DNA of 32,753 bases. Origin: a virus. The notes under the pieces are model-generated. The model was not told the DNA's origin. It searched no databases and saw nothing but the letters and a program-made list of their open reading frames with translations. The position numbers and the translations under genes are program-made. Shown piece after piece: positions 3,316-28,465 of this stretch. Each line of letters begins with the position of its first letter. The first letter of the stretch is position 1. The stretch spans positions 1-32,753 of the IMG/VR virus record IMGVR_UViG_3300037245_000653. One strand, written 5' to 3'.

Positions 3316-4146
3316 ATGACTAAGAAAGTAGGAATGCAATACGTCAAAGAGTTCTCGTTCCCAGCGGAGCAGGGGTTCACGGGATCCGCAGGCAAGTCAC
3401 CCGTGAAGGGTTACATGCGGGGTGGTGCGGTGAAGGCGACGCAGGAGACTGCGAACGCTAATAAGCACCGTGCACCGAGTGTTGGCGCTTCTCGCGGCGG
3501 CACTGTCGGTGTGACCACCAAGCGTGGACCGAAGTCGAGGCGACCGAAGAACACCATGACCAAGGCTGCGCAAGGCGGCTCTGTGCACGACAAGTTGTAC
3601 GCAGCTGGCGACGAGATGGGCTACATGCGCGGTGGTGCGGTGAAGAACACCTCTGCTGAGTTCGTGCAGAAAGCAGGACCGCAAGCTTCCATGGACGAAG
3701 GTGTGCAGCCTGCACGTCGTGGTCGCACTCAAGCCGATGTCGAAGCCGGTGGCACGAAGCGACTGAAGCCGAGACTTGCACGTGGTGGTGGCGTTCACAA
3801 GACGCGCCCCTACGTCGGCAAGGCGAAGAAGAAAGGCGGACTCGCCAAGTATGCTTCGGGTGGGTCAGTCAGTCCCCCGTCGGTAGGGATGCTGGGTAAA
3901 GGTCAAGCTGCCGCTGCTGCTCGTGGAATCCGTGAGAGAGAAGAGCGTGTTCGTTCAACGGTAGATGAAGCACTGGCAGGTCAGCGAAGGTCTCAACAAG
4001 CCAGCCCACGTCCGAAGGCACGGGTGCAGGACAAGCCTGCTCCGAAGAAGGACCGCATCTATCGCGAGGACAAAGAGGGTGTGCCCACCTTCACGGACGT
4101 GCCGAAGGTAGGTAGACGCATGGGAAAGCGCGGGGCGGCAAGGTAG
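3316..4146 (+). CDS. Basic Gly-Gly-motif virion-type protein (0-frame product)
   Basis: A 276-residue, strongly basic, low-complexity protein built around repeats of the form x-x-GG-[small]-V: YMRGGAVK (twice), SRGGTVG, AQGGSVH, ARGGGVH and ASGGSVS. The same motif recurs in the large virion proteins encoded at 14950, 16935, 18268 and 22249. Near the C-terminus, DRIYREDKEGVPTFTDVP looks like the short DUF4124 type (IY..D..G...F.D.P); this is a pattern resemblance only. SD-like GGAGATAGAG precedes ATG 3316. The 0-frame stop at 4144-4146 is probably not the only end: a G GGA AAG heptamer at 4122-4128 allows a -1 shift into an open 46-codon extension. Likely a minor virion or nucleic-acid-associated protein, inferred from its basic composition and position. 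Confidence 0.65.
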   Translation: MTKKVGMQYVKEFSFPAEQGFTGSAGKSPVKGYMRGGAVKATQETANANKHRAPSVGASRGGTVGVTTKRGPKSRRPKNTMTKAAQGGSVHDKLYAAGDEMGYMRGGAVKNTSAEFVQKAGPQASMDEGVQPARRGRTQADVEAGGTKRLKPRLARGGGVHKTRPYVGKAKKKGGLAKYASGGSVSPPSVGMLGKGQAAAAARGIREREERVRSTVDEALAGQRRSQQASPRPKARVQDKPAPKKDRIYREDKEGVPTFTDVPKVGRRMGKRGAAR

Positions 4147-4162
4147 AGCGCACAGCTCGCCG
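4122..4162 (+). promoter_or_regulatory. Candidate -1 ribosomal frameshift signal 1 (GGGAAAG plus stem)
   Basis: The heptamer GGGAAAG at 4122-4128 lies in the register G GGA AAG of the 3316 gene, so both tRNAs can re-pair in the -1 frame (GGG AAA). After a 7-nt spacer a stem can form: CGGC 4136-4139 with GCCG 4159-4162, a 6-nt bulge containing most of the 0-frame stop, then GAGC 4146-4149 with GCTC 4155-4158 around a 5-nt loop. Lambda uses the same heptamer for gpG/gpGT (established). The stem was drawn by eye and no energy was computed. Confidence 0.58.
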
Positions 4163-4268
4163 GGTCGCTAACGACGTGATGGATAGACATGTGCGATCAC
4201 CGAGACCGAAGGGTCACGGCACGTCCCCGCGTGGTGGTAGAAGCAGAGTTCGAGGAGCCAAATACTAA
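4122..4268 (+). CDS. -1 frame extension of the 3316 gene (trans-frame product of about 317 aa)
   Basis: Frame -1 relative to the 3316 gene has a TAG at 4113-4115, is then open, and ends at TAA 4266-4268. That stop overlaps the next gene's ATG (TAATG). A slip on G GGA AAG (4122-4128) joins K271 to 46 further residues beginning ARGGKVERTARR and ending RGAKY. The extension continues the basic Gly-Gly motif of the parent (ARGGKV, SPRGGR), as expected of a genuine C-terminus. A free-standing 29-codon ORF from ATG 4179 (or GTG 4176) is possible, but it lacks a clear ribosome binding site and would leave the conserved-looking ARGGKV part untranslated. A sequencing indel is the main alternative. Confidence 0.6.
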   Translation, partial: GKARGGKVERTARRVANDVMDRHVRSPRPKGHGTSPRGGRSRVRGAKY

Positions 4269-5344
4269 TGGCAACGAGCGGAACAGTTGGTCAGACGATC
4301 TTCCTGAATCAGCAGATCATCGATCACGCCTTCAGGCGTTGCAAGATGGTTGAGCAGGAGATCACAGGTGAGCACCTGCAGATTGCTCTGGAGTGTTTGT
4401 GGTTGTTCTGCATGAGCCTCGTCAACAAAGGCATCAAGCTGTGGAACATCGACCGGATCATCCTGCCTATCTATGCGGGTGAGTTCACTGTGCCGCTGCC
4501 ACTGGGCACGGAAGAGATCCTCGACATCAACCTGCGCACTCAGAACCGATTGAGTAGTGGCACTGCCACTGCATCTGAAGGTGTAGCAGATAACGCATTT
4601 GACAGCGACCTGCTCACGGCATGCACCCAGACATTGGTGGACGGCAACATCCAGCTGCAGTTGGAGACCGCGACCGCAGCGACGACGTTCGGGATCTTGC
4701 CGAACTCTTTACCCTCAGGATCTCCATGGGGCTTCGTGATCGAAGGATCGAACGACGGCATCAGTTACACCACGCTGATTGATCGCACGTCGGGTCAGGT
4801 GGTTGTCGCAGGTGAGTGGGTCTGGTACGACATCCAGAACGCGAACGCATTCGAGTACTACCGGCTGCGTGCGAACGACGGGGTCACGATCTTTGATGTG
4901 ATCGAGTTTGTGATCCAGAACGCACCTCAAGAGATTCCGTTCTACCACACGCTGAACCGGACCGATTACTCGAACCTGCCCGACAAGACGTCACCGGGGC
5001 GACCGACGCAGCTGTGGTACGACCGACAGCGCACGATCCCTGAGCTGGAGATCTGGCCCAGCCCGGAGGAGCAGTTCACGTTCGCCCAGATCACCGGGTA
5101 CGTGCACTCTCAGATCCAAGACGTCGGTGCGATGACCGATGAGCTGGAGGTGCCTGATCGCTGGTACATGGCAATTGAGTCGAATCTGGCGAAGCAGCTG
5201 GCACGGAAGATCAAGGAAGTGAAGATCGAGTTGATCCCACAGATCGATATCGATGCGAGCGCAGACCTTAACGATGCATGGACTGGTGAGGGCGACGGCT
5301 CTGACACCTTCCTGCGTCCTAACATATCGCCGTACACGAGGTAG
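4268..5344 (+). CDS. Adaptor-like head-tail protein with discoidin-like insert
   Basis: A 358-residue protein. The N-terminal ~95 residues are helical (NQQIIDHAFRRCKMVEQEI..., LWNIDRIILPIYAGEF) and the C-terminal ~130 residues contain a segment of the form GRPTQLWYDRQ...ELEIWPSPEE. Both patterns are typical of phage connector/adaptor proteins that join the portal to the tail. Between them, roughly residues 95-220, lies an inserted beta domain with WGFVIEGSNDGISYTTL and ANAFEYYRLRA. This matches the F5/8 type C (discoidin) pattern seen in carbohydrate-binding modules. ATG 4268 overlaps the stop of the preceding -1 frame extension (TAATG), which supports translation of that frame. A second, simpler adaptor is at 10545. 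Exact position in the particle is inferred. Confidence 0.6.
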   Translation: MATSGTVGQTIFLNQQIIDHAFRRCKMVEQEITGEHLQIALECLWLFCMSLVNKGIKLWNIDRIILPIYAGEFTVPLPLGTEEILDINLRTQNRLSSGTATASEGVADNAFDSDLLTACTQTLVDGNIQLQLETATAATTFGILPNSLPSGSPWGFVIEGSNDGISYTTLIDRTSGQVVVAGEWVWYDIQNANAFEYYRLRANDGVTIFDVIEFVIQNAPQEIPFYHTLNRTDYSNLPDKTSPGRPTQLWYDRQRTIPELEIWPSPEEQFTFAQITGYVHSQIQDVGAMTDELEVPDRWYMAIESNLAKQLARKIKEVKIELIPQIDIDASADLNDAWTGEGDGSDTFLRPNISPYTR

Positions 5345-5346
5345 TC

Positions 5347-5694
5347 ATGCCTATTTTCCTAGATCCATCAGGCAGGTCAACTTTCGGCATCGGTGTGTGC
5401 GCACGCTGCTGGCAGAAGTTCTCGTTGGAAGACCTGTTCTCGGACCCTAACTCACCTGGGTTGAAGGTCTGCAAAGATGATCTCGATGATTACGATCCGT
5501 ACCGACTGCCAGCACGTCGGACGGAGGACGTGACGTTGCGCTTCTACCGACCTGACGAAGACCTGAGTGCGGGTGGTGCGGTACCGAACAACACGTCGCT
5601 GTTTGGAGTTCGTGGAACGGTAGGTGGGAATCCACGAATCACCGCAGGAGGTGACCTTCGAGTCATCGAAAGCGCTACATTGGGAACGGATTAA
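5347..5694 (+). CDS. Small putative zinc-binding protein
   Basis: A 115-residue protein starting at ATG 5347, 2 nt after the previous stop. The N-terminal half has CARCWQKFSLEDLF followed by a single further Cys (KVCKDDLDDYDP) with acidic residues, reminiscent of a small zinc-binding knuckle with Cys/Asp ligands. The C-terminal half is Gly/Thr-rich and could be flexible or bind a partner. It is placed between the adaptor-like gene and fibre 2, and a comparable Cys-containing small protein (8174) follows fibre 2. The family is not recognised. Zinc binding is inferred from only three cysteines and is uncertain. Confidence 0.55.
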   Translation: MPIFLDPSGRSTFGIGVCARCWQKFSLEDLFSDPNSPGLKVCKDDLDDYDPYRLPARRTEDVTLRFYRPDEDLSAGGAVPNNTSLFGVRGTVGGNPRITAGGDLRVIESATLGTD

Positions 5695-5696
5695 GC

Positions 5697-8174
5697 ATGC
5701 CAAACGTAACAATTTCAGAGCTGCCAGATGCGGTACTCCCCTTAGACGGTCCTAACTCATTCTTTGAGGTGCAGACCACTGAGAGTGGTGTAGTCGTCAG
5801 CCGCAAGGTTGCGTCCGACAACATCTCAATCACTGCCGATCTGCCCTTGGGCACTCTTGGACAGACGATCTACAACAGTGATGGGTCACGGGGCTACACA
5901 GCGACTGACGGGCTCACCATAGACCCCAACGGTGAAGTTCAGCTGACTTGGAATGCTGCAGCCTCAGCTGATATCACGTTTCGGCTGACTACCGATGGTG
6001 CGATCCTGCGGAGACCTTCAGCTCCAACTCCGAATGATCTTCGGTTGCTCTTCACCGAAGGCACCTTCATCGAAGTCACCATGGCGAGCATTGGCTTCGA
6101 CGGCTCTGACATCTTCACCATTAATGGTCTCGGTCTTCAGACGGACATCAACACGAATAGTTCGGGTGGGGTGACCATCTCGCAGGTTGGGATACCTGTA
6201 TTCCAAACGCTCGCTACTTCGGTCAAGGTTCTCAACGCCCGGTTCGATGTAGACAACGATGGTTTAGACACACTGACAAGTTCACGGGTACGCAATCTTA
6301 CTGGTGGCGTTGACCTCCGTATCCTCACTGGTGGTGATGCTGCAATCTCCCAACTTGTCGGAACCACGGGTGGCTTTGAGGACGACTGGCTGGAGTTTGC
6401 TAGAAACCTGGGCGTCACGATCAACCACAACAACATCAGCATGGCACGCAGCGTTGCCATCGGCTCTGGTGGCTTCGAGGTAAACAACACTGTCACGGGT
6501 GCTGGCTTCGAACGCGTACTGACCGTATCGGATTTAGGTGGAGGCGTAGGCTTCCCCATCCAAGCACTGGACAACGATCAGATTCAGTGGGGCACCGGCA
6601 ACGATGTCCAGCAGTTCTTCAACGGCACTGACCTGCTCTTCACCGCAGTCGCTGGTGTGGACTTCCGTTTCAGCAGTGCCAGTACTGCGCTCCTTGAGTT
6701 AGTGGGCACCGGTCTCAATCTCGATGCCACCCTTGGAACACGAGCGGACAGTGGAGGGGTTGCATGGTATTGGGATGAGAGCGTAACAACCGGAAAGATC
6801 CGGCAGACGTCAGCAGCAGGGGTGCTCGAAGACGACTGGATCACCATGGTCATCAATGGTGCGGTCGCGCTCTTCTTCAACGGTGTGAATGTCGCCCAAA
6901 CGATGGCGGCTGCTAGTGGCGGACTGCAAGTCAACAACACGCTCACGGGCGCAGGATTTGAACGAGTCCTGACCATTGGGGATTTGTTCACGCTCGCTGA
7001 CCCCCTGACTATCGGTCAGATCATTATTTCCAATACCAATCTGATTGATCTGGTAGACACCAACACTGCGCTCAACATCGGTTCATCGGACCCGGACAAC
7101 AATCCCCACGTTGAGCTGGGGCTCTTCGGTCTTGGGGCAGGTATCCAGGCGAAGGCGACTGCCACGACCATTGATACGTTGGAGATCCAACCGCTGGGTG
7201 GAACCCTAAACCTCGGTCCGCCTGGATCTGCTGCCGTTGCAGGTGGAGCCAACCTCAGGTTTGCCAACGGTGGTGGAGCGGGGGGCAACATCGTCGAGAC
7301 AACGATCTCAGGGATCATCCTTGAAGGTCGCACTGGCTCGAACACGATCCTCGACTTCCATCAGGTCAATGGCAACCTCGCCATGCGGGTAGTGCACAAC
7401 GGTGGAAACTTCCAGTTCGAGGGTTTCATTAACAGCCAGGAGATTCGGTTTCAATCGCGTGATTCGGGGAGCACCGTTCGACAGCTCCTGCATTTGGATC
7501 CGGACGACGACATCGCCATGTTCGATCAGGGCACGGAAGTGGCTCACACGCTGCCCGCAGCGTCAGGTGGCTTCGCGGCGAACAACACATTAACGGGCGC
7601 GGGCTTCGAGCGTGTGCTCACGACGAGTGACCTTGGTGCTGGTGATCCCAGCGGGTGGGACTACGTCGCGGAACTGCTGACCGATACGTCTGTGGTTACT
7701 TCTACGACTCTCGTGGAGATCACGGACTTCACCGTTGACGACACGATCTACCCGACCGACTTGAGTGGTACCGAGAAGTATCTGTGCCGTTACTACGTGG
7801 ACGGCTTCGTCAGTGGTGGTGCTGGTGGTGGTGCCCGCCTCGGCCATAGATATATCAACTCGGCTCACATCGTCGAGGCGAGAGGTCTGCACCGCTTGAT
7901 GCTGGACACGACCAGTTCGGTTGCTCACGCAGCTGCGACGGAGGAAGCCAGAGGTGACATTGGTACCTCTGCAACTGCGACTGCCTTTACGCTCAACAAC
8001 GGGGTGAGCGGGGCGCAGTACACTTTGCGTTCGCAATTTTCGCTGACATCCAATACGCAATCCGGCGATGAGTTCACACTGGAGATCGCGCAACAAAGCT
8101 CCGATGCCCAGCCCACGATCTTCGAGCGTGCTGGCTTCGTGAAATTCCACTTCGGCACCTTGGTGGCAGTGTAA
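5697..8174 (+). CDS. Tail-fibre-like structural protein 2 with three internal repeats
   Basis: An 825-residue beta-rich protein high in Gly, Thr, Asn, Asp and Leu. Three copies of a ~24-residue repeat, centred on NNTxTGAGFERVLTxxDL, occur near residues 258-281, 407-430 and 623-646, separated by variable beta-type segments. This looks like a modular shaft with exchangeable inserts. The last ~170 residues (from SGWDYVAELL) form a distinct domain with Gly-rich loops, probably the distal tip that contacts host or environment. No depolymerase catalytic motif is evident. ATG 5697 is 2 nt after the previous stop; its TAA overlaps the next ATG (TAATG). Likely an appendage or receptor-binding protein. 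Confidence 0.7.
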   Translation: MPNVTISELPDAVLPLDGPNSFFEVQTTESGVVVSRKVASDNISITADLPLGTLGQTIYNSDGSRGYTATDGLTIDPNGEVQLTWNAAASADITFRLTTDGAILRRPSAPTPNDLRLLFTEGTFIEVTMASIGFDGSDIFTINGLGLQTDINTNSSGGVTISQVGIPVFQTLATSVKVLNARFDVDNDGLDTLTSSRVRNLTGGVDLRILTGGDAAISQLVGTTGGFEDDWLEFARNLGVTINHNNISMARSVAIGSGGFEVNNTVTGAGFERVLTVSDLGGGVGFPIQALDNDQIQWGTGNDVQQFFNGTDLLFTAVAGVDFRFSSASTALLELVGTGLNLDATLGTRADSGGVAWYWDESVTTGKIRQTSAAGVLEDDWITMVINGAVALFFNGVNVAQTMAAASGGLQVNNTLTGAGFERVLTIGDLFTLADPLTIGQIIISNTNLIDLVDTNTALNIGSSDPDNNPHVELGLFGLGAGIQAKATATTIDTLEIQPLGGTLNLGPPGSAAVAGGANLRFANGGGAGGNIVETTISGIILEGRTGSNTILDFHQVNGNLAMRVVHNGGNFQFEGFINSQEIRFQSRDSGSTVRQLLHLDPDDDIAMFDQGTEVAHTLPAASGGFAANNTLTGAGFERVLTTSDLGAGDPSGWDYVAELLTDTSVVTSTTLVEITDFTVDDTIYPTDLSGTEKYLCRYYVDGFVSGGAGGGARLGHRYINSAHIVEARGLHRLMLDTTSSVAHAAATEEARGDIGTSATATAFTLNNGVSGAQYTLRSQFSLTSNTQSGDEFTLEIAQQSSDAQPTIFERAGFVKFHFGTLVAV
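6468..7635 (+). repeat. Three dispersed repeats inside fibre 2
   Basis: Three 73-nt units at 6468-6540, 6915-6987 and 7563-7635 encode near-identical protein segments (NNTVTGAGFERVL, NNTLTGAGFERVL, NNTLTGAGFERVL) followed by T-x-x-D-L. The nucleotide copies have diverged at many third codon positions (for example ACGGGTGCTGGCTTCGAACG versus ACGGGCGCAGGATTTGAACG). The protein sequence is therefore under selection and the duplication is old. The units may be hinges or trimerisation collars between fibre modules, or recombination points for module exchange; both are inference. Confidence 0.75.
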
Positions 8175-8539
8175 TGAGCGAGACTTTTCAATACATCCCG
8201 CAGCTCTTCCCGAGAGAGTTCGCTCCGCTGGTTGATCAGCCTCGTGATTTGCATTACACGAGTACCCGGTACTACGACCGACGCAGTGGCTCGCTCATGT
8301 GGCCTGTGTTTCATCGTGAGTGTGCTGAGGTTGCGTTCTTCATGACGAAGGATCCACGCCTCGTTACTAACATCCGCTCGTTCATGGTCTTTGATCGGGA
8401 AGGCAAGCACCCGCCACCCAACACAGAGATGATCTGCGGGAGCTGCCATGAACGAATTCTAAAAACTGATCTTCTTGCGGAGCCGCCACCCCGTAAGAAA
8501 ATTATCTCGATACCCATGGTGGCACCAAAGGAGAATTAG
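8174..8539 (+). CDS. Small Cys-containing protein downstream of fibre 2
   Basis: A 121-residue protein coupled to fibre 2 by TAATG. It contains FHRECAEVAFFM near the middle and ICGSCHERIL near residue 95. The His and Cys of the first with the two Cys of the second could form a single zinc site (H-x3-C ... C-x2-C). Aromatic and basic residues are frequent in the N-terminal half (YTSTRYYDRR). The C-terminus is Pro/Lys-rich. The domain is not recognised. It could be a fibre assembly factor or a small structural protein, by position only. Confidence 0.58.
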   Translation: MSETFQYIPQLFPREFAPLVDQPRDLHYTSTRYYDRRSGSLMWPVFHRECAEVAFFMTKDPRLVTNIRSFMVFDREGKHPPPNTEMICGSCHERILKTDLLAEPPPRKKIISIPMVAPKEN

Positions 8540-8542
8540 AAA

Positions 8543-8833
8543 ATGCAATCACAGCAAGTAACCCCAGTTCAGATCCAAATGGCGGCATCTGCAGGGGTCG
8601 AGCTTCTAGCAATTAAGGATCTGCCAGTGCCGATGAGCATTGCAAAGTCCGGTGCACTGTCAGTGCTCGAAGGAATGTTGCAAGCCATCGCACGTGGGGA
8701 GCTGGTCGTTGCTCCCAACCCAGAGATGCAGAAAGCCATACCTGTACCTGATGGGGATGGTCCCGACGGTGGCGAGTCGGCGCAACCTCCGGGTGTTGAA
8801 CGAATCGACGGAGGCAAAGGTAAGGCGGGCTAA
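8543..8833 (+). CDS. Hypothetical protein at start of lysis region
   Basis: A 96-residue protein with a strong Shine-Dalgarno (AAAGGAG at about 8526-8532) ahead of ATG 8543. The N-terminal 55 residues are moderately hydrophobic and helical (VTPVQIQMAASAGVELLA, LSVLEGMLQAIARGELVV). The rest is a Gly/Pro/Asp-rich disordered tail ending in GGKGKAG. No convincing transmembrane helix and no known motif. It precedes a membrane/coiled-coil protein, endolysin and holin by 2 nt, so it may belong to the lysis transcript. Function unknown. Confidence 0.55.
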   Translation: MQSQQVTPVQIQMAASAGVELLAIKDLPVPMSIAKSGALSVLEGMLQAIARGELVVAPNPEMQKAIPVPDGDGPDGGESAQPPGVERIDGGKGKAG

Positions 8834-8835
8834 CT

Positions 8836-9102
8836 ATGAGCGGCATGGACATCAGCAAGGCGAGTCTTCCGATCACTGTAGTCGCAGGCATTGTGCTGCT
8901 TGGGCTGGGGTACTGGGTGAACGCTCAGGACGCGAAGATCGAGAAGAACGCAGAGGCTATCGAGGAAGTCGAGGAGGAAGTCATAGAGCAGAAGCTCGAA
9001 GTGAAAGACGAACTCTCCGACATCAAGACGGTGCAGGCAATCAACGTGATACTGCTGCAGCAGATTGCTGATGACATCAAGAAGATCGCAGACGATGGGT
9101 GA
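8836..9102 (+). CDS. Single-TM coiled-coil protein, candidate inner-membrane spanin (Rz-like)
   Basis: An 88-residue protein with one clear N-terminal transmembrane helix (about residues 11-28, LPITVVAGIVLLGLGYWV). It is followed by a charged heptad-type coiled coil rich in Glu, Lys, Ile and Val to the C-terminus (KIEKNAEAIEEVEEEV..., IADDIKKIADDG). A membrane anchor plus long periplasmic coiled coil next to endolysin and holin is the usual build of i-spanins such as lambda Rz, and this suggests a Gram-negative host. No overlapping o-spanin lipoprotein was recognised. The last 8 nt overlap the endolysin start at 9095. It could instead be a holin-like or structural membrane protein. Confidence 0.5.
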   Translation: MSGMDISKASLPITVVAGIVLLGLGYWVNAQDAKIEKNAEAIEEVEEEVIEQKLEVKDELSDIKTVQAINVILLQQIADDIKKIADDG

Positions 9103-9538
9103 CTTCGTCTACGGCAGTAAGTCAGCTGGTCGCATCGCGACGTGCCACGTGAAGATGCAAGACGTGGCAATGCGTGCGATCAAGCTGACGCCTGTGGACT
9201 ACACCATCATCCACGGTTGGCGTGGCGAAGAGATACAAACAGTATTGTTCGAGTCGGGGGCATCGTTGACACCCTGGCCCGAGTCGCAGCACAACAACGA
9301 AGAAGACGAAGGTGACGGTGTGCTCATGCCGTGCTCACTCGCCATCGACTTCGGTGTGTTGATCAACGGCAAGATTCCGTGGGGCGATACGCACGCGTTC
9401 GCGGTGGTAGCGGGGGTATGGTTCGCCGCAGCAGAGGAGTTGGGAGCAACTCTTCGCTGGGGTGGTGATTGGGATATGGACGGCAGTACTGAAGATCAGA
9501 CGTTCATGGACTGGGGACATATGGAGATCAGGTTATGA
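9095..9538 (+). CDS. Endolysin, M15-family peptidase (L-alanyl-D-glutamate / D-Ala-D-Ala type)
   Basis: 147 residues from ATG 9095, which overlaps the preceding gene by 8 nt; an upstream TTG-type start at 9065 would lengthen the protein into the neighbouring gene and is not favoured. The M15 zinc triad is visible: SQH at residues 64-66, AIDF with Asp85, and DWGHMEI with His142 (Asp139 as likely catalytic residue). The N-terminal region carries the family pattern of helices before the active site, and WGGDW resembles the W-GGDW segment before the last ligand. Such enzymes cut peptidoglycan stem peptides. The interval between His66 and Asp85 is longer than the usual 7-8 residues and holds an acidic stretch (NNEEDEGDG). 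No signal peptide, so export would depend on the holin at 9702. Confidence 0.85.
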   Translation: MGDFVYGSKSAGRIATCHVKMQDVAMRAIKLTPVDYTIIHGWRGEEIQTVLFESGASLTPWPESQHNNEEDEGDGVLMPCSLAIDFGVLINGKIPWGDTHAFAVVAGVWFAAAEELGATLRWGGDWDMDGSTEDQTFMDWGHMEIRL

Positions 9539-9705
9539 AGATCAAATTGAACAACCCACTTCCACTTGTGTCGGTCGCCTTGTTGGGCATCGGAGTGGAG
9601 GTGCAGTACGCACGTAATGACAAAGGTCATCAGATCTGTATGTCGGTAGAAGCCGTCGTGTGGGAGTGGTGCAAAGAGTGGACAGTGAGGAAGACTGAGA
9701 AGTGA
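9535..9705 (+). CDS. 56-residue hypothetical protein in lysis cluster
   Basis: A short gene whose ATG (9535) overlaps the endolysin stop as ATGA, and whose TGA (9703-9705) overlaps the holin GTG start (GTGA). The product begins MKIKLNNPLPLVSVALLGIG and ends CKEWTVRKTEK. It has a short hydrophobic stretch near residues 9-20, too polar overall for a confident membrane helix, and three Trp in the C-terminal half. Perfect coupling on both sides is the main support. It may regulate lysis or bridge translation from endolysin to holin. Function unknown. Confidence 0.6.
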   Translation: MKIKLNNPLPLVSVALLGIGVEVQYARNDKGHQICMSVEAVVWEWCKEWTVRKTEK

Positions 9706-10184
9706 GTGTCATCACAGCCATAGCCGGTGCCGTCAAAGGCATCATGGGCGGCAAGGGTGTCGGGGATCTGGTGTCGGAGTTCATCACCGACAAAGACAAG
9801 GCAGCTGAGTTCGTCCACAAGATGGAGCTGGCTGTGCTCGCGGACAAGGATCTCGAACGTCAAACCGAGATCGCGTTTGAAGAAACGATGACCAATCGCA
9901 TCACCGCTGAGCTGCACCAGTCAGATGTGTACACGAAACAGACACGCCCGAAGATTGCGAGGCAGTCGTGGTACCTCACCATTGCGTACGCGATCTTCTC
10001 GACCATCGGGGCTCCGTTGCTGGCGCACTTTACTGCGCAGGCGGGTCCGGATGGTGTAGTGGTTGCCGGTGTATTCGCGGACCTCACTTTCCAGTGGGAA
10101 GTGTTCATCGCGATTGCATCACCCGCGCTTGCCTACATGGGTGTGCGTACTTTTGATAAATGGAAAAACGGAGGCTCTTCATGA
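9702..10184 (+). CDS. Holin, three-TM GTA type
   Basis: A 160-residue protein starting at GTG 9702 with a GAGGAAG Shine-Dalgarno just upstream. Layout: a soluble N-terminal half (GIMGGKGVGDLVSEFI..., charged helix), then TRPKIARQSWYLTIAYAIF leading into hydrophobic helices at about residues 89-110 and 117-150. This arrangement, with the R-P-x-I/L-A-R-x-x-W/L segment before the first helix, fits the 3-TM holin family of gene transfer agents and many proteophages (GTA_holin_3TM). It would form the inner-membrane lesion that releases the M15 endolysin. ATGA overlap with the next gene. Confidence 0.75.
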   Translation: MSVITAIAGAVKGIMGGKGVGDLVSEFITDKDKAAEFVHKMELAVLADKDLERQTEIAFEETMTNRITAELHQSDVYTKQTRPKIARQSWYLTIAYAIFSTIGAPLLAHFTAQAGPDGVVVAGVFADLTFQWEVFIAIASPALAYMGVRTFDKWKNGGSS

Positions 10185-10534
10185 GCGTACTAGCTGCACT
10201 GAGTGAACTGACCTACTGCACCAGAATAGGTGGGGGCAGTGTCCTAACTTTACCTCAGCTTGCTGAACTGATGACACATCTGGATTCAGGTGCCTGTTCG
10301 GAAAGCTTGATCAATGCGATGGCAGAAGTGCCACGAGCACCCAGCCCTGATGAGTGGGACGCGATGCGTGCGGGAGAAACACCGAGTGTGCCAGAACCAA
10401 CCCCCGAGCCCGAACCACAACCCGAGCCAGAGCCCGAGCCGGTTGCGGAAACGCCGACAGAAGAGCCGGTTGCTGAGACTGAAGAGGCGACGGAAGAAGC
10501 GGCTGACGACGATACGGAAGCCACCCCCGTCTGA
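10181..10534 (+). CDS. Acidic Pro-Glu-repeat protein
   Basis: 117 residues from ATG 10181, which overlaps the holin stop (ATGA) and has GGAG a few bases upstream; the in-frame ATG at 10160 lies inside the holin gene and is less likely. The N-terminal ~65 residues form a small helical domain (LPQLAELMTHLDSG...). The rest is a disordered Pro-Glu ladder (PEPTPEPEPQPEPEPEP) passing into Glu/Ala/Thr/Asp. Such acidic tails are common in small virion or spacer proteins. Function unknown. Confidence 0.6.
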   Translation: MSVLAALSELTYCTRIGGGSVLTLPQLAELMTHLDSGACSESLINAMAEVPRAPSPDEWDAMRAGETPSVPEPTPEPEPQPEPEPEPVAETPTEEPVAETEEATEEAADDDTEATPV

Positions 10535-10544
10535 GGAGTGACCG

Positions 10545-11189: not shown

Positions 11190-13141
11190 TGCCTTATACC
11201 GACATCTTTGGTGGAGAGCTGATCTTCCCATCGATCACGAGCTACAACTCGATCAACACCGCTGTGGATGTCGTACTGCAGTGGGCGAGAGAGCAGCAGA
11301 TCGAAGGGGTCAACGTTGTCGCTGACTGGATGGACGTCGATGCCACGGTGATATCACTGAACATCGATATGCCGTCTGCGTCGCAGGCATCTACTGGCAA
11401 CAAGGTCACGTTCAATAACATCGGTGCGAACTCGTACACCGTGCGTGACAACACAGGTGGCACGATCCAAACCGTAGCACCGGGTGAGCAGTGGGTACTG
11501 ATCCTGACAGACAACACCACGCAAGCAGGTGTGTGGATCACCTCCCAGCTGGGTGCGACGGTCTCGGTCGCATCTGCTGGTGCACTGGCAGGTGCGGGGA
11601 TCAAAGCGATCACCACCACGTTGAACCAGAAGATCGACTCCGACGTCGAGGGAGCAACTCCGTTCACTGTGGTAGATGGTGACCGAGCGAAGTGTTTGGT
11701 CTACACCGCTGGCGCAGGTACCTGTAACTTGCCGTCACCGGGTGCTGTGGGTAACGACTGGTTCTTCATGCTGAGGAACTCTGGCAGTGGCACGCTCAAC
11801 GTCTTGCCTCCGTCTGGTGTGATCGACGGTGGTGCGAGCATCAACCTTGACCCGAACGACAGCGCATTCATCTTCACGGATGGCACTGACTTCTTCACCG
11901 TCGGCTTGAGCACAGGCTCGACCATCGCGTTCGACTTCGTCTCGATTGCGATCCCCGGCTCTGGTGACTTCGTGCTCAGCGGTGCAAACCTAAACAGGAT
12001 CTCCTACCGTTTCACGGGTGCGCTGACTGGTAACCGAACGATTGTAGTACCCAACACAACTCAGCAGTACTGGGTAGACAACCAGACATCAGGCGCTTTT
12101 GATCTGGACGTCAACACAGCTGCCGGTTCGGGTCAGACAATTGCGCAGGGTCAGAGTGTGATCGTGTACTGCGACGGCACCGACGTGATCAACGCGACAT
12201 CATCCACCAGTGTGTCGTTCCCGATCACCGTTGGTCAGGGGGGCACGGGTGCTACCGACGCAGCGACTGCGCGAGGGAATCTCTCTGCTGCGTTCAGCGG
12301 TCAGGACATGATCGCAGGAGCGGGGATGACCGGAGGTGGAACGCTCTCAGCAGATCGCACGTTCAACGTGATCGCAGGCATCGGTCTCGTGGTCAACGCC
12401 AACGACATCGATGTTCTCCAGGCAACGGAAGGCGCACTCGGTGGTGCAGAGCTGGCGACTCAGGCTGAGACAGATGCAGGTGTCGATGATACGAGGATCG
12501 TCACGCCTCTGAAGTTGGCTAACTTCCCCATCAGCGCAGGTTCGTTGGGAGGCTTGTCAGACGTCACGCTTACGGCACCACCAACAGGTGCGGTGCTCTA
12601 CAAGAGTGCAGGCGACTGGTTGGATGGAAATAACGCAATCCAAGTTGACCCTGCGGGTCCGATTACCCTGCAGCACAACGCAGTAGACACTGCTCAGACT
12701 GCAACACAAGTCAACGGTGGCTTACTAGCTAACTGGAGCGCAGGGCTCGAACCCGTCGCAACTATCACTTCCGGATCGTTCGTGGCTGACTTCTCTGGCG
12801 ACTTCAGCGGCACCGTGCAGCGTACGGTCGATTGGGTAAAAGTTAGCACCTTCCTGATCAGCATGGTCACTCTGGCACTGCCAACTGTTACAGGAACGAG
12901 CAACACTCAAGGCTTTGCTTCGGGTGGTGGCGATATCCCTAACAACCTCAGACCTATTGGAGGCAACCTCGTCCAGCAACTCCAGTACGCAACAGATAGC
13001 GGTGCACGAGTGATTTGCCGAATGACCATCATGAGTGGGGGGTTTGAATTCTTCGTCGGGAACGACGTTGCAGCCAACTCATGGACGAACACAGGGACCA
13101 AAGGCTGTGACGACATCAACTTCACGTATCAGGTTGCCTAA
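11189..13141 (+). CDS. Tail-fibre-like structural protein 3
   Basis: A 650-residue beta-rich protein starting in a TGATG overlap with the adaptor. The first ~330 residues contain three degenerate copies of a module reading roughly N-x-G...V...G....V...DGT: around TGNKVTFNNIGANSYTVRD, then NDWFFMLRNSGSGTLNVLP with SAFIFTDGTDFF, then QYWVDNQTSGAFDLDV with QSVIVYCDGTD. A fibre hallmark follows (VGQGGTGATDAATARGNL), then a Gly-rich stretch (GAGMTGGGTLSADRTFNV) and a C-terminal domain from about residue 510. These patterns are typical of phage fibre and side-appendage proteins. It is coupled by TAATG to the nozzle-like gene, so it probably attaches near the tail nozzle. Confidence 0.7.
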   Translation: MPYTDIFGGELIFPSITSYNSINTAVDVVLQWAREQQIEGVNVVADWMDVDATVISLNIDMPSASQASTGNKVTFNNIGANSYTVRDNTGGTIQTVAPGEQWVLILTDNTTQAGVWITSQLGATVSVASAGALAGAGIKAITTTLNQKIDSDVEGATPFTVVDGDRAKCLVYTAGAGTCNLPSPGAVGNDWFFMLRNSGSGTLNVLPPSGVIDGGASINLDPNDSAFIFTDGTDFFTVGLSTGSTIAFDFVSIAIPGSGDFVLSGANLNRISYRFTGALTGNRTIVVPNTTQQYWVDNQTSGAFDLDVNTAAGSGQTIAQGQSVIVYCDGTDVINATSSTSVSFPITVGQGGTGATDAATARGNLSAAFSGQDMIAGAGMTGGGTLSADRTFNVIAGIGLVVNANDIDVLQATEGALGGAELATQAETDAGVDDTRIVTPLKLANFPISAGSLGGLSDVTLTAPPTGAVLYKSAGDWLDGNNAIQVDPAGPITLQHNAVDTAQTATQVNGGLLANWSAGLEPVATITSGSFVADFSGDFSGTVQRTVDWVKVSTFLISMVTLALPTVTGTSNTQGFASGGGDIPNNLRPIGGNLVQQLQYATDSGARVICRMTIMSGGFEFFVGNDVAANSWTNTGTKGCDDINFTYQVA

Positions 13142-14706
13142 TGGCTGAGACACCCGCACCCATCTGGTCGCAACCCGGTATCAAACGGGACGGTACCAAA
13201 TTCGAAGGCAACAACTATGTTGATGGTCGCTGGTGCCGGTTCCAACGTGGCAAACCTCAGAAGATGGGCGGCTACCAGCAGGTCACTGACACGGTGCCTG
13301 AAGTTACGCGTGGCATGCACTCGTTCTCGAAAGATGACATCCAATACCTGCACCTTGGGCACCCCGACACCGTCGGTCAGTATCAAGTCTCTAACGGGTC
13401 GCTCAACCTGTTTACTGATCGAACTCCTGCAGGCTTTGTAACTGACCTCAACAACATGTGGCAGTTCGACGTCTTCGCGGACACGGCAGGCACAGGTAAC
13501 CACCTCCTGATCGCACATGCCGCACCGAACGCAGCCAACATCGATAACTCGATAGGTGGCAACATCTACATCGATACCATTGATGCGGGTGCTGCGTTGA
13601 ACGTCGTAGGTCTCAACATTGATGCCGCAGTAGGATGGAACACGGGAACAGCGGGACCAGTCAGTGGTGGCATCGTTGTGACACAGCAGTTTCTGTTCAT
13701 CTTTGGTAGCGATGGGATCGTCCGTTATAACGGTACGCCCAATGACCTCTCAGCTTTACCTGTTGAGTTCAACAGTGGCACACAGAAATTTGTGAAGGGG
13801 TTTCCTCTTCGCGGTGCGGGTAACGGTCCTGCGGTACTCCTGTGGTCTCTTGATTCATTAGTTCGCGGTACATTCTTAAGCAGTGGTCCATCGACTTTCA
13901 CCTTTGACACCATCGCACGAGGCATCTCGATTCTTTCGTCGCAAGGCATCGTCGAGTACGACGGCATCTACTACTGGCCCGGTAACGACCGGTTCCTGTT
14001 GTTCAACGGTGTCGTGCGTGAGATGCCCAACGAGATGAACGAGAACTTCTTCTTCAACAACCTGAACTTCGCCGCACGACAGAAGGTGTTCGGCTTCAAG
14101 ATCCCGCGCTACGGTGAGATCTGGTGGTGCTATCCGAGAGGCAGTGCTACCGAGTGCACGCACGCGATCATCTACAACGTGCGGAAGGGATTCTGGTACG
14201 ACACTGAGCTGCCTGATGCAGATTCAGTTGACCAAGGACGCACAGCGGGTATCTTCGCCAACGTTTACCAGAAGCCATTCATGGTGGACAACGAGGTGAC
14301 TGCAAACGGGCGTACGCTCTGGCAGCACGAGACGACCAAGGACAAGGTGCGCTCCAGTCAGATCAGCGCGATCCAGTCGTTCTTCGAGACCCATGAGCTG
14401 TCGTTGCTGGAGAGCGGGCAGAGCGACAAGTCGATCAGGGTTGCGAGGATCGAGCCTGACTTCGTGCAGGTCGGTGACATGACGCTGACGGTGAAGGGGC
14501 GAGCGAACGCGAAAGCTCCGCAGGTGGATGAGGCTCCCGTGACATTCGTGGCGAACCCTACGGAAGGCACGGACGAGACCATCAAGCTGAAAGACATCAA
14601 GCGGTTGATGAGCTTCCGCTTCGAATCTAACACAGGGTCGGGTGACTACGAGTACGGTGACACCTACGCGCACATCGGACCAGCGGATGGGAGGATCGAA
14701 TCATGA
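13141..14706 (+). CDS. Tail nozzle / packaged-DNA stabilisation-like protein (P22 gp10 / T7 gp12 role)
   Basis: A 521-residue beta-rich protein with repeated blade-like segments (FIFGSDGIVRYNG, IVEYDGIYYWPGNDRFLLFNG, AIIYNVRKGFWYDTELP), in keeping with a beta-propeller nozzle. It opens with APIWSQPGIKRDGTKFEGN...YVDGRWCRFQRGKPQKMGGY, a start shared by P22 gp10-like and related podoviral nozzle proteins. Near the C-terminus it has RLMSFRFESNTGSGDYEYGD, a signature of the same group. In the particle it would form the end of the short tail and hold packaged DNA. Position after the adaptor and fibre fits. Assignment by pattern only, without a search. Confidence 0.65.
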   Translation: MAETPAPIWSQPGIKRDGTKFEGNNYVDGRWCRFQRGKPQKMGGYQQVTDTVPEVTRGMHSFSKDDIQYLHLGHPDTVGQYQVSNGSLNLFTDRTPAGFVTDLNNMWQFDVFADTAGTGNHLLIAHAAPNAANIDNSIGGNIYIDTIDAGAALNVVGLNIDAAVGWNTGTAGPVSGGIVVTQQFLFIFGSDGIVRYNGTPNDLSALPVEFNSGTQKFVKGFPLRGAGNGPAVLLWSLDSLVRGTFLSSGPSTFTFDTIARGISILSSQGIVEYDGIYYWPGNDRFLLFNGVVREMPNEMNENFFFNNLNFAARQKVFGFKIPRYGEIWWCYPRGSATECTHAIIYNVRKGFWYDTELPDADSVDQGRTAGIFANVYQKPFMVDNEVTANGRTLWQHETTKDKVRSSQISAIQSFFETHELSLLESGQSDKSIRVARIEPDFVQVGDMTLTVKGRANAKAPQVDEAPVTFVANPTEGTDETIKLKDIKRLMSFRFESNTGSGDYEYGDTYAHIGPADGRIES

Positions 14707-14945
14707 TCATCGATCCGCGAGGCTTCGACAACGTGATGCAATGGGCAGACTTCATGGTGCCCCTGTTTGAGGTTGAGTCAGAGAACTTCCCCCGGCTCGA
14801 AAGAGAAGAGGATTGGCAGGACTGGGCAGCGACAATATTCGGAGATGTAGATCCGATTGGACAGGACGCACCTGATCCACACACATATGACAACTGGCGA
14901 GAGTGGGCGCAACGCCTCTTCGCTACAACGAATTTTGAAGGGTAG
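14703..14945 (+). CDS. Small Trp-rich hypothetical protein
   Basis: An 80-residue acidic protein coupled by ATGA to the nozzle-like gene. Six Trp residues are spaced along it in D/E-x-W-x-x-W-A patterns (EEDWQDWAATIF, YDNWREWAQRLF), giving two similar halves. It begins MIIDPRGFDNVMQWADFM. This composition suggests a small packing or scaffold partner of neighbouring virion proteins. No known domain recognised. The next gene begins 4 nt later at ATG 14950. Confidence 0.6.
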   Translation: MIIDPRGFDNVMQWADFMVPLFEVESENFPRLEREEDWQDWAATIFGDVDPIGQDAPDPHTYDNWREWAQRLFATTNFEG

Positions 14946-14949
14946 GAAC

Positions 14950-16935
14950 ATGCCAGCAGCACAAGGTGGACTAGCACAGATGCTCGCTCAACAGGGCGGG
15001 TCGGAAGAACTCATCGACACCGCTCGTGCAATTGAGCTGGTGCCCGGAGGTCCGGAGCTGCTCTACACCGTCGCCGCCGAACAGATGATGACGGACCAGG
15101 GTATCCCGAAGAAAGATGCCAAGAAGGTCAGGCTCTACTGCATCGGTGGGTCGGTGAAGAAGGCACGCGGTGGTGTTGCCAGCGCTGCTGAGAAGACCCG
15201 AGCTGCAGGTCGTGGTGACGACTCGATGATGCTCCACATGAGCCCGGAGGAGTACGAAGCGATCACTGCGATGTGGGGCGAGCCTGAGGTCAACCCGAAG
15301 ACCGGCATCGGTGAGTACGGCTTCCTGTCCAAGGTGTGGAAGAAGATCAAAAAGGGTGTCAAGAAAATCGTCAAGTCGCCCATCTTCCGGATGGTCGCTC
15401 CCATTGCCCTGTCGGTGTTCATGCCGGGGCTTGGGACTGCCATCGGCCTGAAGATGGGCCTGAGTGGTGCTGCAGCGTCCGTGGCGGGCAACGCTATCGT
15501 GCAGGGTGGACTGGGTGCCGTGACCGGTGGCAAGGAAGGAGCGCTCACAGGAGCCATCTCTGGGGGTCTGGGAGCTGCTGCTGGTGCGTACGGGTCGAAG
15601 GTGGGTGCAGCTCTGGGCTTGGAGGCTGGCAGCAAGACCGCGAACGTCGTCGGAAGCGCTGTGATCCGGGGTGCGGGAGCTGGGCTGACTGGAGGCGACG
15701 TCGTCGAAGGTGCGCTTACAGGTGCGCTCACCGCAGGCACCCAACCGATGAGCGAGCGGTTCTCAGCGGATGCACGAAGCGCAATGGGCATGAAGCCTGC
15801 GAGCGAGACGGCAATGGGACGGTACATAGCTGCCGAGCAAGGCCTCACAGCGCCTCCTGACCCCGGTATCGATGCAGGGGGTGACGAGTACACCCCGACC
15901 CTAGATCGTCCTGTGACGGGACAGGAGGTGCTAGCTGGAGCCGATCCGGGGCGTGTCGCCCGGACGGCAAGCCCTGCACCCGCCGCGATGGATCCACTGG
16001 CACCCACTGCTGCGGCACCTGCTGCGGCACCCACGAGAACCCAGAGCTTGATGGCTCTGGCAGGTAAGTACGCTATCCCTGCAATGACTGCTTTGGGCGC
16101 AGCGAGTTCGGGTAGCTACGAAGACGATGGACCTCCGGAGCTGCCACCCGAGTGGGGCGAGCGTCTGCCGGTCTTCAAGATGAATCGCCAGTTCCGGGGG
16201 CTCAAAGACCCATCGGATTATTTCACCTACGGTCAGGCAGGCTCACCGATGTCGGGGCAGCACCTGTTCATGGCACCGGAACCTTTCCCTGGTGACACGA
16301 GTCCTCTGGCGGCAGCTGCGGGCGCGACTGGACCTCAACCCGTGCCGCTACCTCCGGGTCGTGAAGGGATGACCCAGCGGCGTACTCTGGAGCAGCAGGG
16401 CTGGACGTACAATCCAGGGAACAACAGCATGATGCCCCCCGCTCAGGCAGCGGGTCAGCTGGGAGCAGCTCAGTCGCCGGGAGGTGAGAATTTCGTAGCA
16501 CGTGGTGGCTACCAGCGTGGTGGCGAGTTCGACTACTGGGAACAGAATCAAGATGTACCCAACGCAGCACCGGCAGTCAGTCGGGAAGGAGGTCATCATG
16601 TGCAGGGTCCGGGCTCAGGTCGATCAGACGATATCCCAGCGTACTTAAGCGACGGGGAGTATGTCATCGATGCTGAGTCCGTCTCCCTGCTGGGTGATGG
16701 TTCTGGATCTGAAGGCGCACGACGACTCGACGAGATGCGACGTGAGCTGCGCAAGCACAAGGCGGGCAAAATGAAGAAGGGTGAGTTCACTAACAAGGCG
16801 AAGAACCCCCGTGCCTACATGAACAACGTCAAGAAGCTGAGGCGTACGGTGAAGTACGAACATGGGGGTCTACACAACGTGGGTGGGACCAGTCCCGTGC
16901 CACCTAATCGCCCAGCAGCAGGAGGGAATGCCTGA
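14950..16935 (+). CDS. Large internal virion / DNA-ejection-type membrane-active protein 1
   Basis: 661 residues from ATG 14950; the frame is open to 14857, but that start would overlap the previous gene by ~90 nt. N-terminus AQGGLAQMLAQQGG, then CIGGSVKKARGGVA, both instances of the Gly-Gly motif. Residues ~125-147 form a cationic amphipathic helix (KVWKKIKKGVKKIVKSP). It is followed to about residue 270 by a glycine-zipper stretch rich in Gly and Ala, typical of proteins that insert into membranes during DNA ejection. The C-terminal part has GPGSGRSDDIPAYLSDGEYV and IDAESVSLLGDGS, a segment recurrent in phage virion proteins, then a Lys-rich tail with YEHGGLHNVGG. TGATG overlap with the next gene. 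Ejection role is inferred. Confidence 0.6.
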   Translation: MPAAQGGLAQMLAQQGGSEELIDTARAIELVPGGPELLYTVAAEQMMTDQGIPKKDAKKVRLYCIGGSVKKARGGVASAAEKTRAAGRGDDSMMLHMSPEEYEAITAMWGEPEVNPKTGIGEYGFLSKVWKKIKKGVKKIVKSPIFRMVAPIALSVFMPGLGTAIGLKMGLSGAAASVAGNAIVQGGLGAVTGGKEGALTGAISGGLGAAAGAYGSKVGAALGLEAGSKTANVVGSAVIRGAGAGLTGGDVVEGALTGALTAGTQPMSERFSADARSAMGMKPASETAMGRYIAAEQGLTAPPDPGIDAGGDEYTPTLDRPVTGQEVLAGADPGRVARTASPAPAAMDPLAPTAAAPAAAPTRTQSLMALAGKYAIPAMTALGAASSGSYEDDGPPELPPEWGERLPVFKMNRQFRGLKDPSDYFTYGQAGSPMSGQHLFMAPEPFPGDTSPLAAAAGATGPQPVPLPPGREGMTQRRTLEQQGWTYNPGNNSMMPPAQAAGQLGAAQSPGGENFVARGGYQRGGEFDYWEQNQDVPNAAPAVSREGGHHVQGPGSGRSDDIPAYLSDGEYVIDAESVSLLGDGSGSEGARRLDEMRRELRKHKAGKMKKGEFTNKAKNPRAYMNNVKKLRRTVKYEHGGLHNVGGTSPVPPNRPAAGGNA

Positions 16936-18065
16936 TGGGAAGCGTCACTGATTTCTTGTTCGAAGGGAAGCCGCCCAAGTCGGTCAACACCTACGGACAG
17001 ACCATCGAGAACGTCCCGAAGTGGATGTCAGATTACACGCAGGGTCTGATCGCGAGAGCGAACGCTGCGGCAGCTGAGCCATACATCCCCTACGGTGGTC
17101 CGCGCATCGCGCCGTTCGCTCCGGAGGAGGAAGCTGGCTTCGGACTGGCCGAAGAAAACGTCGGTGCCTACCAGCCATGGCTCGAAGCAGGTGCTGAAGG
17201 CGTACGCGGTGGACTGGATGAGTTCTCTCAAGATTACGATCCGAGAGGTGTCGCAGACCCCTACCTCGCAGGAGGTACTGAGGAATTTCCTGAAGGCGTG
17301 GATCGCTACATGGACCCGTACGTTCAGAACGTGCTCGACCGTCAAGAGAGCCTCGCTACACGCTCGCTCGAAGAGAAATTCCTACCCGGTCTGCAGAAGT
17401 CATTCACGGGTGCAGGTCAGTTCGGTTCGCGAGGTGGCGAAGGGTCCATGGAGCAGATCGGCATGAGGGGTATCAGGGATATCTCTGAAGGTCTGGAAGA
17501 ACAGCGGTTGGCGACACTATCCGGTGCCTACGGTCAGGCGGGTGAGTTGTTCGGTGCAGACCGAGCACGGCAGCTCCAAGCGGGTGAGATCAGAGGTGGT
17601 CTCGAAGAAGCAGGCGGACGACTCGGTGTTCAACAAGGACTGGGCATGCTGCAAGGAGCTGAGACAGCTGGTCGTCTGGGTGAGCAAGCGTCGAAGCTGG
17701 GCTACGGTGACGCCGCTGCGATGGAAGCAGTCGGTAAGTCTCGACGTGGCATGGGTCAAGCCAGCCTCGATCAGGCATACCAAGACTTCCTCGAACAGCG
17801 AGACCTGCCGATGGATCGCACTCGTTTCATGAGCGAGATGATTCGTGGTCTGCCATCGTCAGCGATAGGACGAACGACGCAGCGACAAGACTACGGACCG
17901 GCAGACATCTACCAGCCCTCTGGTCTGTCGCAGATCGTCGGTGCCTACGGCACGTACAAAGGTCTTACGGAAGCTGAAGGTGGGTACATCGACAACGAGA
18001 GCGGTGAGTATTTCGAACCTAACGGGTACGCACACGGGGGCTTGGCACTAGCGGGAAAGTACTAA
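16935..18065 (+). CDS. Virion-type protein with Gly-Gly C-terminus (0-frame product)
   Basis: A 376-residue protein starting in a TGATG overlap. The N-terminal third is acidic and Gly/Pro-rich (YIPYGGPRIAPFAPEEEAGF). The middle is helical with repeated Ala, Gln, Glu and Arg (RGIRDISEGLEEQRLATLSG, ARQLQAGEIRGGLEEAGGRL). The C-terminal ~40 residues include GLTEAEGGYIDNESGEYFEP and YAHGGLALAGKY. The pattern DPYVQNVLDRQE...FLPGLQ and AGQFGSRGGEG resembles a conserved but uncharacterised group of virion-associated phage proteins. The final codons read GCG GGA AAG TAC TAA, which embeds the G GGA AAG heptamer of the second frameshift candidate. Probably an internal or minor virion protein. Confidence 0.6.
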   Translation: MGSVTDFLFEGKPPKSVNTYGQTIENVPKWMSDYTQGLIARANAAAAEPYIPYGGPRIAPFAPEEEAGFGLAEENVGAYQPWLEAGAEGVRGGLDEFSQDYDPRGVADPYLAGGTEEFPEGVDRYMDPYVQNVLDRQESLATRSLEEKFLPGLQKSFTGAGQFGSRGGEGSMEQIGMRGIRDISEGLEEQRLATLSGAYGQAGELFGADRARQLQAGEIRGGLEEAGGRLGVQQGLGMLQGAETAGRLGEQASKLGYGDAAAMEAVGKSRRGMGQASLDQAYQDFLEQRDLPMDRTRFMSEMIRGLPSSAIGRTTQRQDYGPADIYQPSGLSQIVGAYGTYKGLTEAEGGYIDNESGEYFEPNGYAHGGLALAGKY

Positions 18066-18098
18066 GCGCTGAGCCCTATGCATTAGGTGGCTTGGCGC
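18053..18098 (+). promoter_or_regulatory. Candidate -1 ribosomal frameshift signal 2 (GGGAAAG, 6-nt spacer, 10-bp stem)
   Basis: GGGAAAG at 18053-18059 lies in the 0-frame register G GGA AAG. The spacer TACTAA (18060-18065) contains the 0-frame stop. Immediately after it GCGCTGAGCC (18066-18075) can pair with GGCTTGGCGC (18089-18098), giving 10 bp with two G-U pairs around a 13-nt loop. An alternative inner CCTA/TAGG hairpin (18075-18078 with 18084-18087) is mutually exclusive with part of it. Slippery heptamer, 5-9 nt spacer and stable stem is the canonical layout of -1 frameshift elements. Pairing was found by eye. Confidence 0.68.
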
Positions 18099-18268
18099 AG
18101 GCAGCAAAAGCTGGATGGCAAAAGGTGAAGGGGTGGTGGCGTGGACTCACTGGGCAAAACACGGGGCGAGAGAATCCGGGGTTCGCCCGAGCTGCTAACG
18201 AGCTGTACGAGAAATGTGATATGCGCAGCCGAGCACGAGGTGGCGTTCGGATTGAGGATGAAGACTGA
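18053..18268 (+). CDS. -1 frame extension of the 16935 gene (trans-frame product of about 444 aa)
   Basis: After TAA 18020-18022 the -1 frame is open to TGA 18266-18268, and that stop overlaps the next gene's ATG (TGATG). A slip at 18053-18059 fuses K375 to 69 residues starting VLSAEPYALGGLAQAAKAGW and ending RGGVRIEDED. The extension has a Trp-rich basic helix (QKVKGWWRGL), a helix ANELYEKCDM, and two more Gly-Gly motifs (YALGGLAQ, RARGGVRI). There is no ATG in this frame before 18218, too late to explain most of the protein-like sequence by independent initiation. This explains the otherwise empty 202-base interval in a genome where genes overlap. Sequencing error is the alternative. Confidence 0.65.
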   Translation, partial: GKVLSAEPYALGGLAQAAKAGWQKVKGWWRGLTGQNTGRENPGFARAANELYEKCDMRSRARGGVRIEDED

Positions 18269-28296: not shown

Positions 28297-28465
28297 GTTG
28301 TTGTTGTTTCGCTATCCCGTAGTAGAAACGCCACCCGATTTCCATTGACTCAAAGTAGTGGGGTTCCCCTGCAATTATGAGCTTCTGAAAATCGAGTGGT
28401 GCTATGCGAGTGAACGGACCCTCGATGGTACGAGGATCCAGCCACCCTGGAGAGTACTGACTCAC
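28283..28465 (-). CDS. 60-residue hypothetical protein between SSB-like and helicase genes
   Basis: The start chosen is GTG 28465, which overlaps the stop of the SSB-like gene as GTGA; an ATG at 28498 in the same frame would lie 37 nt inside that gene. The product begins with SQYSPGWLDPRTIEGP and includes APLDFQKLIIAG and YFESMEIGWRFYYGIAKQQQ. The balanced, aromatic-rich composition looks like a genuine small protein. The 3' end overlaps the helicase start by 14 nt. It fills the only gap between two replication genes. Function unknown. Confidence 0.6.
   Translation of the reverse strand: MSQYSPGWLDPRTIEGPFTRIAPLDFQKLIIAGEPHYFESMEIGWRFYYGIAKQQQHDSH

Follow-up and report, generated by a model that had tools for sequence, protein, structure and literature searches.

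The 32.8 kb viral record analysed here, from an uncultured tailed phage (IMG/VR IMGVR_UViG_3300037245_000653; all 32,753 nt of it are referred to as the window), contains two open reading frames (ORFs), genes A and B, 14 kb apart, each of which very probably carries a conventional programmed −1 ribosomal frameshift site yielding two isoforms with the same N terminus. Judging from sequence comparisons, the two sites evolve independently and gene B apparently keeps both isoforms whichever frame is longer. Tandem P- and A-site slippage on X_XXY_YYZ would be aided by a downstream hairpin, and probably also by an upstream Shine-Dalgarno (SD)-like sequence, with unshifted ribosomes releasing a product that ends at the 0-frame stop and shifted ribosomes a longer one with Gly-Gly motifs in its C-terminal extension. 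A likely role is the supply of mixed isoforms to the virion, because B seems to be an ejection protein and A is a basic Gly-Gly-repeat protein encoded beside a tail adaptor. The computational evidence covers register, conservation, heptamer turnover, the coding constraint of both extensions, and hairpins, from which we infer slippage in vivo, its efficiency, the entry of both isoforms into virions, and the function of the tails.

The first-pass annotation had proposed a recoding architecture common to the two genes, and the agreement was confirmed for heptamer, register, distance to the stop (3–15 nt), Gly-Gly extension, and the overlap between the extension stop and the next start, with a downstream stem also predicted at both sites (Table 1). 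At site A, the 0-frame codons GGA (4123) and AAG (4126) set the heptamer as X_XXY_YYZ, 15 nt lie between it and the 0-frame TAG (4144), and the extension continues for 41 codons beyond that stop, through the motifs ARGGKV and PRGGR, to a TAA (4266–4268) overlapping the ATG at 4268 by one base. Heptamer B is separated by 3 nt (TAC) from the 0-frame TAA (18063), beyond which extension B has 68 codons, with the motifs YALGGLAQ and ARGGV, and ends at a TGA (18266–18268) that overlaps the ATG at 18268 by one base. GGGAAAG occurs only three times on the plus strand of the window. The whole window was also scanned blind for this layout, the requirements being an ORF of 100 codons or more, an in-register heptamer close to its stop, and a −1 frame that stays open well beyond; the scan returned sites A and B plus two other matches, a TTTTTTC in a spurious ORF (28349–28841) opposite minus-strand genes and a GGGTTTG on the minus strand. 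Given the base composition of the window, an in-register heptamer would arise by chance within the available overlap with a probability of 0.011 (A) and 0.017 (B).

Table 1. Coordinates of sites A and B in the window and of in-register heptamers in relatives with a fused gene B (locus:position).
Feature	Position	Strand	Details
Gene A, 0-frame product	3316..4146	+	276 aa; pI 11; nine Gly-Gly pairs (YMRGGAVK repeats)
SD-like AAGGTAGG	4105..4112	+	9 nt 5' of heptamer A; anti-SD duplex −6.9 kcal/mol
Slippery heptamer A, GGGAAAG (G_GGA_AAG)	4122..4128	+	In register; homologous in-register heptamers in 31/31 extension-bearing relatives
−1 frame extension A	4129..4268	+	46 codons after slip + TAA; 14 K+R, 3 D+E; basic, RG-rich
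Predicted hairpin A	4134..4169	+	5 nt 3' of heptamer A; z −3.3 for 45 nt
Gene after A	4268..5344	+	Related to proteins annotated 'tail adaptor'; start codon overlapped by extension stop; SD-like GAGGAG of its own
Gene B, 0-frame product	16935..18065	+	376 aa; family matches PHROG 4287 'DNA ejection protein'
Slippery heptamer B, GGGAAAG (G_GGA_AAG)	18053..18059	+	In register
−1 frame extension B	18060..18268	+	69 codons after slip + TGA; contains YALGGLAQ
Predicted hairpin B	18066..18098	+	6 nt 3' of heptamer B; z only −1.2 in window; kept in relatives
Gene after B	18268..19584	+	438 aa; N terminus MANYQAGGLAA; start overlaps extension stop; own SD-like TTGAGGAT
Fused B with in-register G_GGA_AAA	L161:5104, L176:5107, L179:5149, L181:5152		−1 stop after 8–9 codons
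Fused B with in-register C_CCA_AAA	L158:5020, L166:5074, L167:5062, L168:5023, L178:5077, L182:5083, L185:5083		−1 stop after 5–10 codons

Gene B appears, on the basis of profile matches and gene order, to encode a DNA ejection (internal virion) protein. PHROG 4287 was matched by 29 of 50 members of the gene B family (best E 4e-14), the window's protein alone falling below the threshold, and the gene sits 3' of a tape-measure-like gene (14857–16935) in the same order as in Caulobacter phage GB2A. Gene B is likely to be of virion type and A, which had no family match, plausibly so; neither matched a capsid or major tail profile, and the head-protein match in the relative L062 belongs to a separate gene upstream of A. 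The gene after B likewise had no family match, solved structures searched by sequence with gene B profiles returned nothing relevant, and an AlphaFold model of gene B built from eight sequences (mean pLDDT, 40) was not used. The motif [YF]xxGG[LVAS] recurs in gene A (3316–4146), the tape-measure-like C terminus (16868–16935), the C terminus and extension of B (18020–18268), and the N terminus of the next protein (18268–18300), and may act as a common tag for assembly or packaging.

The search of related phages for heptamers near stop codons that the first-pass annotation had recommended gave a positive result in many uncultured phages. Searching IMG/VR with the extension A peptide returned 31 contigs, and in every one the extension lies −1 relative to the upstream ORF and follows a heptamer in register, which is AAAAAAA in most (including L062 and L138), GGGAAAG in L055, GGGAAAA in L123, and AAAAAAG, immediately 5' of TAG, in L076; an in-frame fused extension occurred in none of the 31. 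The extension (consensus RGGSVEK.ARRVA..VMDRHVRSPRPKGHGT.PRGGRSRVRGGGY) is kept while the 0-frame C-terminal modules of gene A differ widely among relatives, and in most extension-A relatives its stop overlaps or touches the next ATG (TAATG, TGATG, TAGATG). Among close relatives (L062, L064, L068, L071, L075, L138, and L147) the 0-frame modules are strongly shuffled; such modules beside a conserved frameshifted tail suggest recombination near the slippery site. Several relatives lack extension A (L056–L061, L065–L067), and at L061:2600–2660 deletion has left only its final codons (VRGASY) ahead of the next start.

A survey of 67 site B loci identified 15 contigs besides the window in which extension B is −1 to the gene B frame and follows an in-register heptamer, namely GGGAAAG (L153–L157, L174, and L211), GGGAAAA (L160, L163, L173, and L191), and CCCAAAA (L165, L170, L171, and L175). 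Elsewhere extension B is fused in frame (for example, L158, L161, L164, L166–L168, L176–L179, and L181–L185), and distant gene B homologues (about 50% identity or less), Caulobacter phage GB2A included, lack it. A suspected third site at position 5625 of L211 proved to be a fortuitous overlap involving a spurious ORF. None of the INPHARED isolates carries extension A or extension B, and no relatives were found among GTDB genome contigs, hence no host was obtained by that route. Slippage on AAG depends on tRNA-Lys UUU; tRNA genes were found neither in the window nor in 28 relatives.

Across ORF ends, an in-register heptamer was present at 34 of the 37 A/B-type ends versus 18 of 1205 other ends with an open −1 frame, and one of these 18 was a true site B; the background is about 1.4%. 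Estimates of dN/dS (NG86) were 0.10–0.26 for extension A (window versus 11 relatives) and 0.16–0.21 for extension B (three sequences). Summed over extension A, the −1 frame had a pS of 0.558 and a pN of 0.134, and the opposite pattern appeared in the other two frames (pS/pN, 0.188/0.268 and 0.149/0.267). Both extension peptides are clearly under purifying selection, and the extended isoform that had been suggested at the outset would be the most likely product. Four contigs (L138, L160, L163, and L191) have a −1 frame stop 6 nt 5' of the heptamer and a 0-frame stop 7–22 nt past the heptamer start; these two stops bracket the heptamer and rule out a separate upstream start codon for the extension.

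Predicted hairpins begin 5–7 nt after the heptamer at many sites, and several sites have none. The strongest at site A (window, L055, L075, L076, and L148) have z-scores of about −3.3 to −4.2 and the strongest at site B belong to the G_GGA_AAA group (−21.1 to −26.5 kcal/mol in 45 nt), while z-scores are weak or near zero at L123, L157, L211, and in the C_CCA_AAA group, so that hairpins are not universal. The GGCGGC/GUCGCY core of hairpin A is kept across relatives, and the aligned relatives showed no covariation at the window site. Compensatory changes were seen, among few sequences, in B and in one A group, with pairing lost when the structure was slid; in the four-sequence alignment of hairpin B, 97.9% of cells were paired (33–43% when slid) with one compensatory pair. 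With few sequences per alignment, covariation did not exceed that of shuffles (80/500, 20/500, 129/500, and 110/500). SD-like GGAGG or GGTGG lies 4–14 nt 5' of the heptamer at many sites, often coinciding with Gly-Gly codons, and AAGGTAGG upstream of heptamer A is a possible frameshift stimulator. Synonymous conservation over the 11 codons around the site in the C_CCA_AAA group was 0.910, compared to a gene mean of 0.611, the highest of any 11-codon window (0 of 354 others matched it); these codons include the upstream GCGGAGGGTGGG (GCG GAG GGT GGG), which played no part in selecting the sequences.

The first-pass annotation had held that homologues in several phages without any slippery site, having a clean intergenic region or a single fused ORF, would count against its reading. 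This applies only in part: distant homologues such as GB2A have neither the site nor the extension, and fusion is seen in some close homologues of B, but most fused genes retain an in-register heptamer (11 of 14 distinct sequences; L164, L177, and L183 have no C-terminal heptamer), after which the −1 frame stops within 5–10 codons (Table 1). Downstream of the G_GGA_AAA in fused genes lies a predicted hairpin of −21.7 to −23.5 kcal/mol (45 nt), and the C_CCA_AAA, with weaker hairpins, occupies a position homologous to that in L165 and L170. Read as a frameshift signal, this layout would yield a short isoform, as in bacterial dnaX, which suggests selection on gene B for two isoforms, whichever frame is longer. 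On the tree of the gene B body, the extension-type L160 and L173 fall within a 100/100 clade with the truncation-type L161 and L176, and the intermixing of the two G_GGA_AAA polarities is strongly supported, from which we infer that two isoforms were kept while the frame of the long one changed. Recombination of C termini could also generate this pattern, and the heptamers of fused genes encode conserved dipeptides (GK, PK), so their retention could be partly at the protein level.

What had been presented as a linked pair of sites resolves into two sites that were gained, lost, and changed in heptamer independently. Among contigs covering both loci, extension-type frameshifts occur at both (the window and, as A/B loci, L055/L153, L062/L170, L077/L165, and L078/L163), at A only (L075/L162, L071/L216, L142/L159, L147/L182, and others), and at B only (L056/L211 and L060/L157), such that A and B are not a pair but independent uses of one common device. 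Since all of these combinations occur, the GGGAAAG common to A and B in the window is a coincidental convergence on a good heptamer.

Translational coupling, the other purpose first proposed, would have shifted ribosomes reload at the 4268 and 18268 starts and so set expression of the downstream genes, with the extension peptide incidental. The contact between extension stop and next ATG at A, at B, and in most extension-A relatives fits such a role, but tight gene packing alone explains that overlap, both downstream genes have SD-like sequences of their own, relatives without extension A (L056, L060, and L061) start the same next gene ordinarily, and selection acts on the extension peptides; coupling is unlikely as the main purpose and possible as a side effect. 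That the extensions are separate small genes translated by reinitiation after the 0-frame stop is very improbable. Some −1 frames do hold a downstream ATG or GTG, yet the conserved part begins 5' of the first start codon, the −1 frame of L123, L160, and L165 is free of ATG, GTG, and TTG from its upstream stop to well past the 0-frame stop, and in several relatives extension B is fused in frame to the body.

Extended products could also arise from slippage of RNA polymerase, and not of the ribosome, on runs of A, such as the seven consecutive A in several site A relatives (L062, L138, and others). This is improbable given that long runs are missing from the GGGAAAG sites of the window and from the CCCAAAA and GGGAAAA sites, that every heptamer is set as X_XXY_YYZ against the 0 frame, a register that polymerase slippage would not require, and that hairpins lie downstream. 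Assembly or sequencing indels, or decaying genes, mimicking a frameshift have a negligible probability: although all of the data come from metagenomic contigs and fused B homologues exist, the layout recurs across many samples, in 31 contigs for A (four heptamer types) and 15 for B (three types), the 0-frame stops are conserved, and dN/dS of the extensions is well under 1 (0.10–0.26), which upholds the initial judgement that sequencing errors are not responsible.

The G_GGA_AAG heptamer of sites A and B is also that of lambda gpG/gpGT, whose products are chaperones encoded upstream of the tape measure gene and absent from the virion, whereas B is downstream of a tape-measure-like gene, A precedes a tail adaptor relative, and neither lies between the major tail protein and tape measure genes, the placement of tail assembly chaperones. 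G_GGA_AAG is shift-prone in E. coli (PMC5009743), and PRFect surveys mostly tail assembly chaperones (PMC10274946). A described system with two such sites does exist, contrary to the first-pass annotation: the Listeria phages PSA, A118, and A500 have two frameshifts in structural genes (PMC5009743, citing Zimmer 2003 and Dorscht et al.). As here, two separate sites in one phage each yield a second, C-terminally different isoform, but the genes concerned in Listeria phages encode the major capsid and major tail proteins, as opposed to what appear to be an ejection-type protein and an unassigned basic protein, and their shifts are +1 in the tail gene and +1 (PSA) or −1 (A118/A500) in the capsid gene, as opposed to two −1 tandem slips; no sequence relation was seen. 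In T7/T3 gene 10A/10B and the head protein of Lactobacillus phage A2, a −1 frameshift extends the capsid protein (PMC5009743), similarly adding a C-terminal extension near the 3' end of a virion gene, though in a major capsid gene, with a different extension and a single site in the gene. The short isoform of bacterial dnaX results from a −1 slip to an early stop, with a heptamer, upstream SD, and downstream hairpin, a layout matched by the fused B genes of L161, L176, L179, and L181 and, with weaker hairpins, by the C_CCA_AAA group; dnaX is an unrelated gene, and the gene B family also has the opposite polarity, in which the slip gives the long form. No report of frameshifting in ejection proteins was found in the open-access literature. 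The device is therefore known in kind, and the genes, the clade, and the apparent inversion of polarity in B are new.

A tentative extension of these results, which we hold to be possible and somewhat short of probable, is that the ejection protein needs two C-terminal lengths, both kept by frameshift signals despite flips of frame, with the heptamer and hairpin retained as −1 frameshifting switches between the extension and truncation types, and that the Gly-Gly tails of adjacent virion proteins, of which some are accessible only through a frameshift, serve as a common tag for assembly or packaging. Ordinary gene callers miss both C termini, a warning for the annotation of such genomes. An ejection-type protein and a basic Gly-Gly-repeat protein, apparently undescribed in isolates in this respect, are added to the phage virion genes with programmed frameshifting, and the natural series of extension, fusion, truncation, and loss bears on whether a fixed ratio of ejection-protein isoforms matters for DNA delivery.
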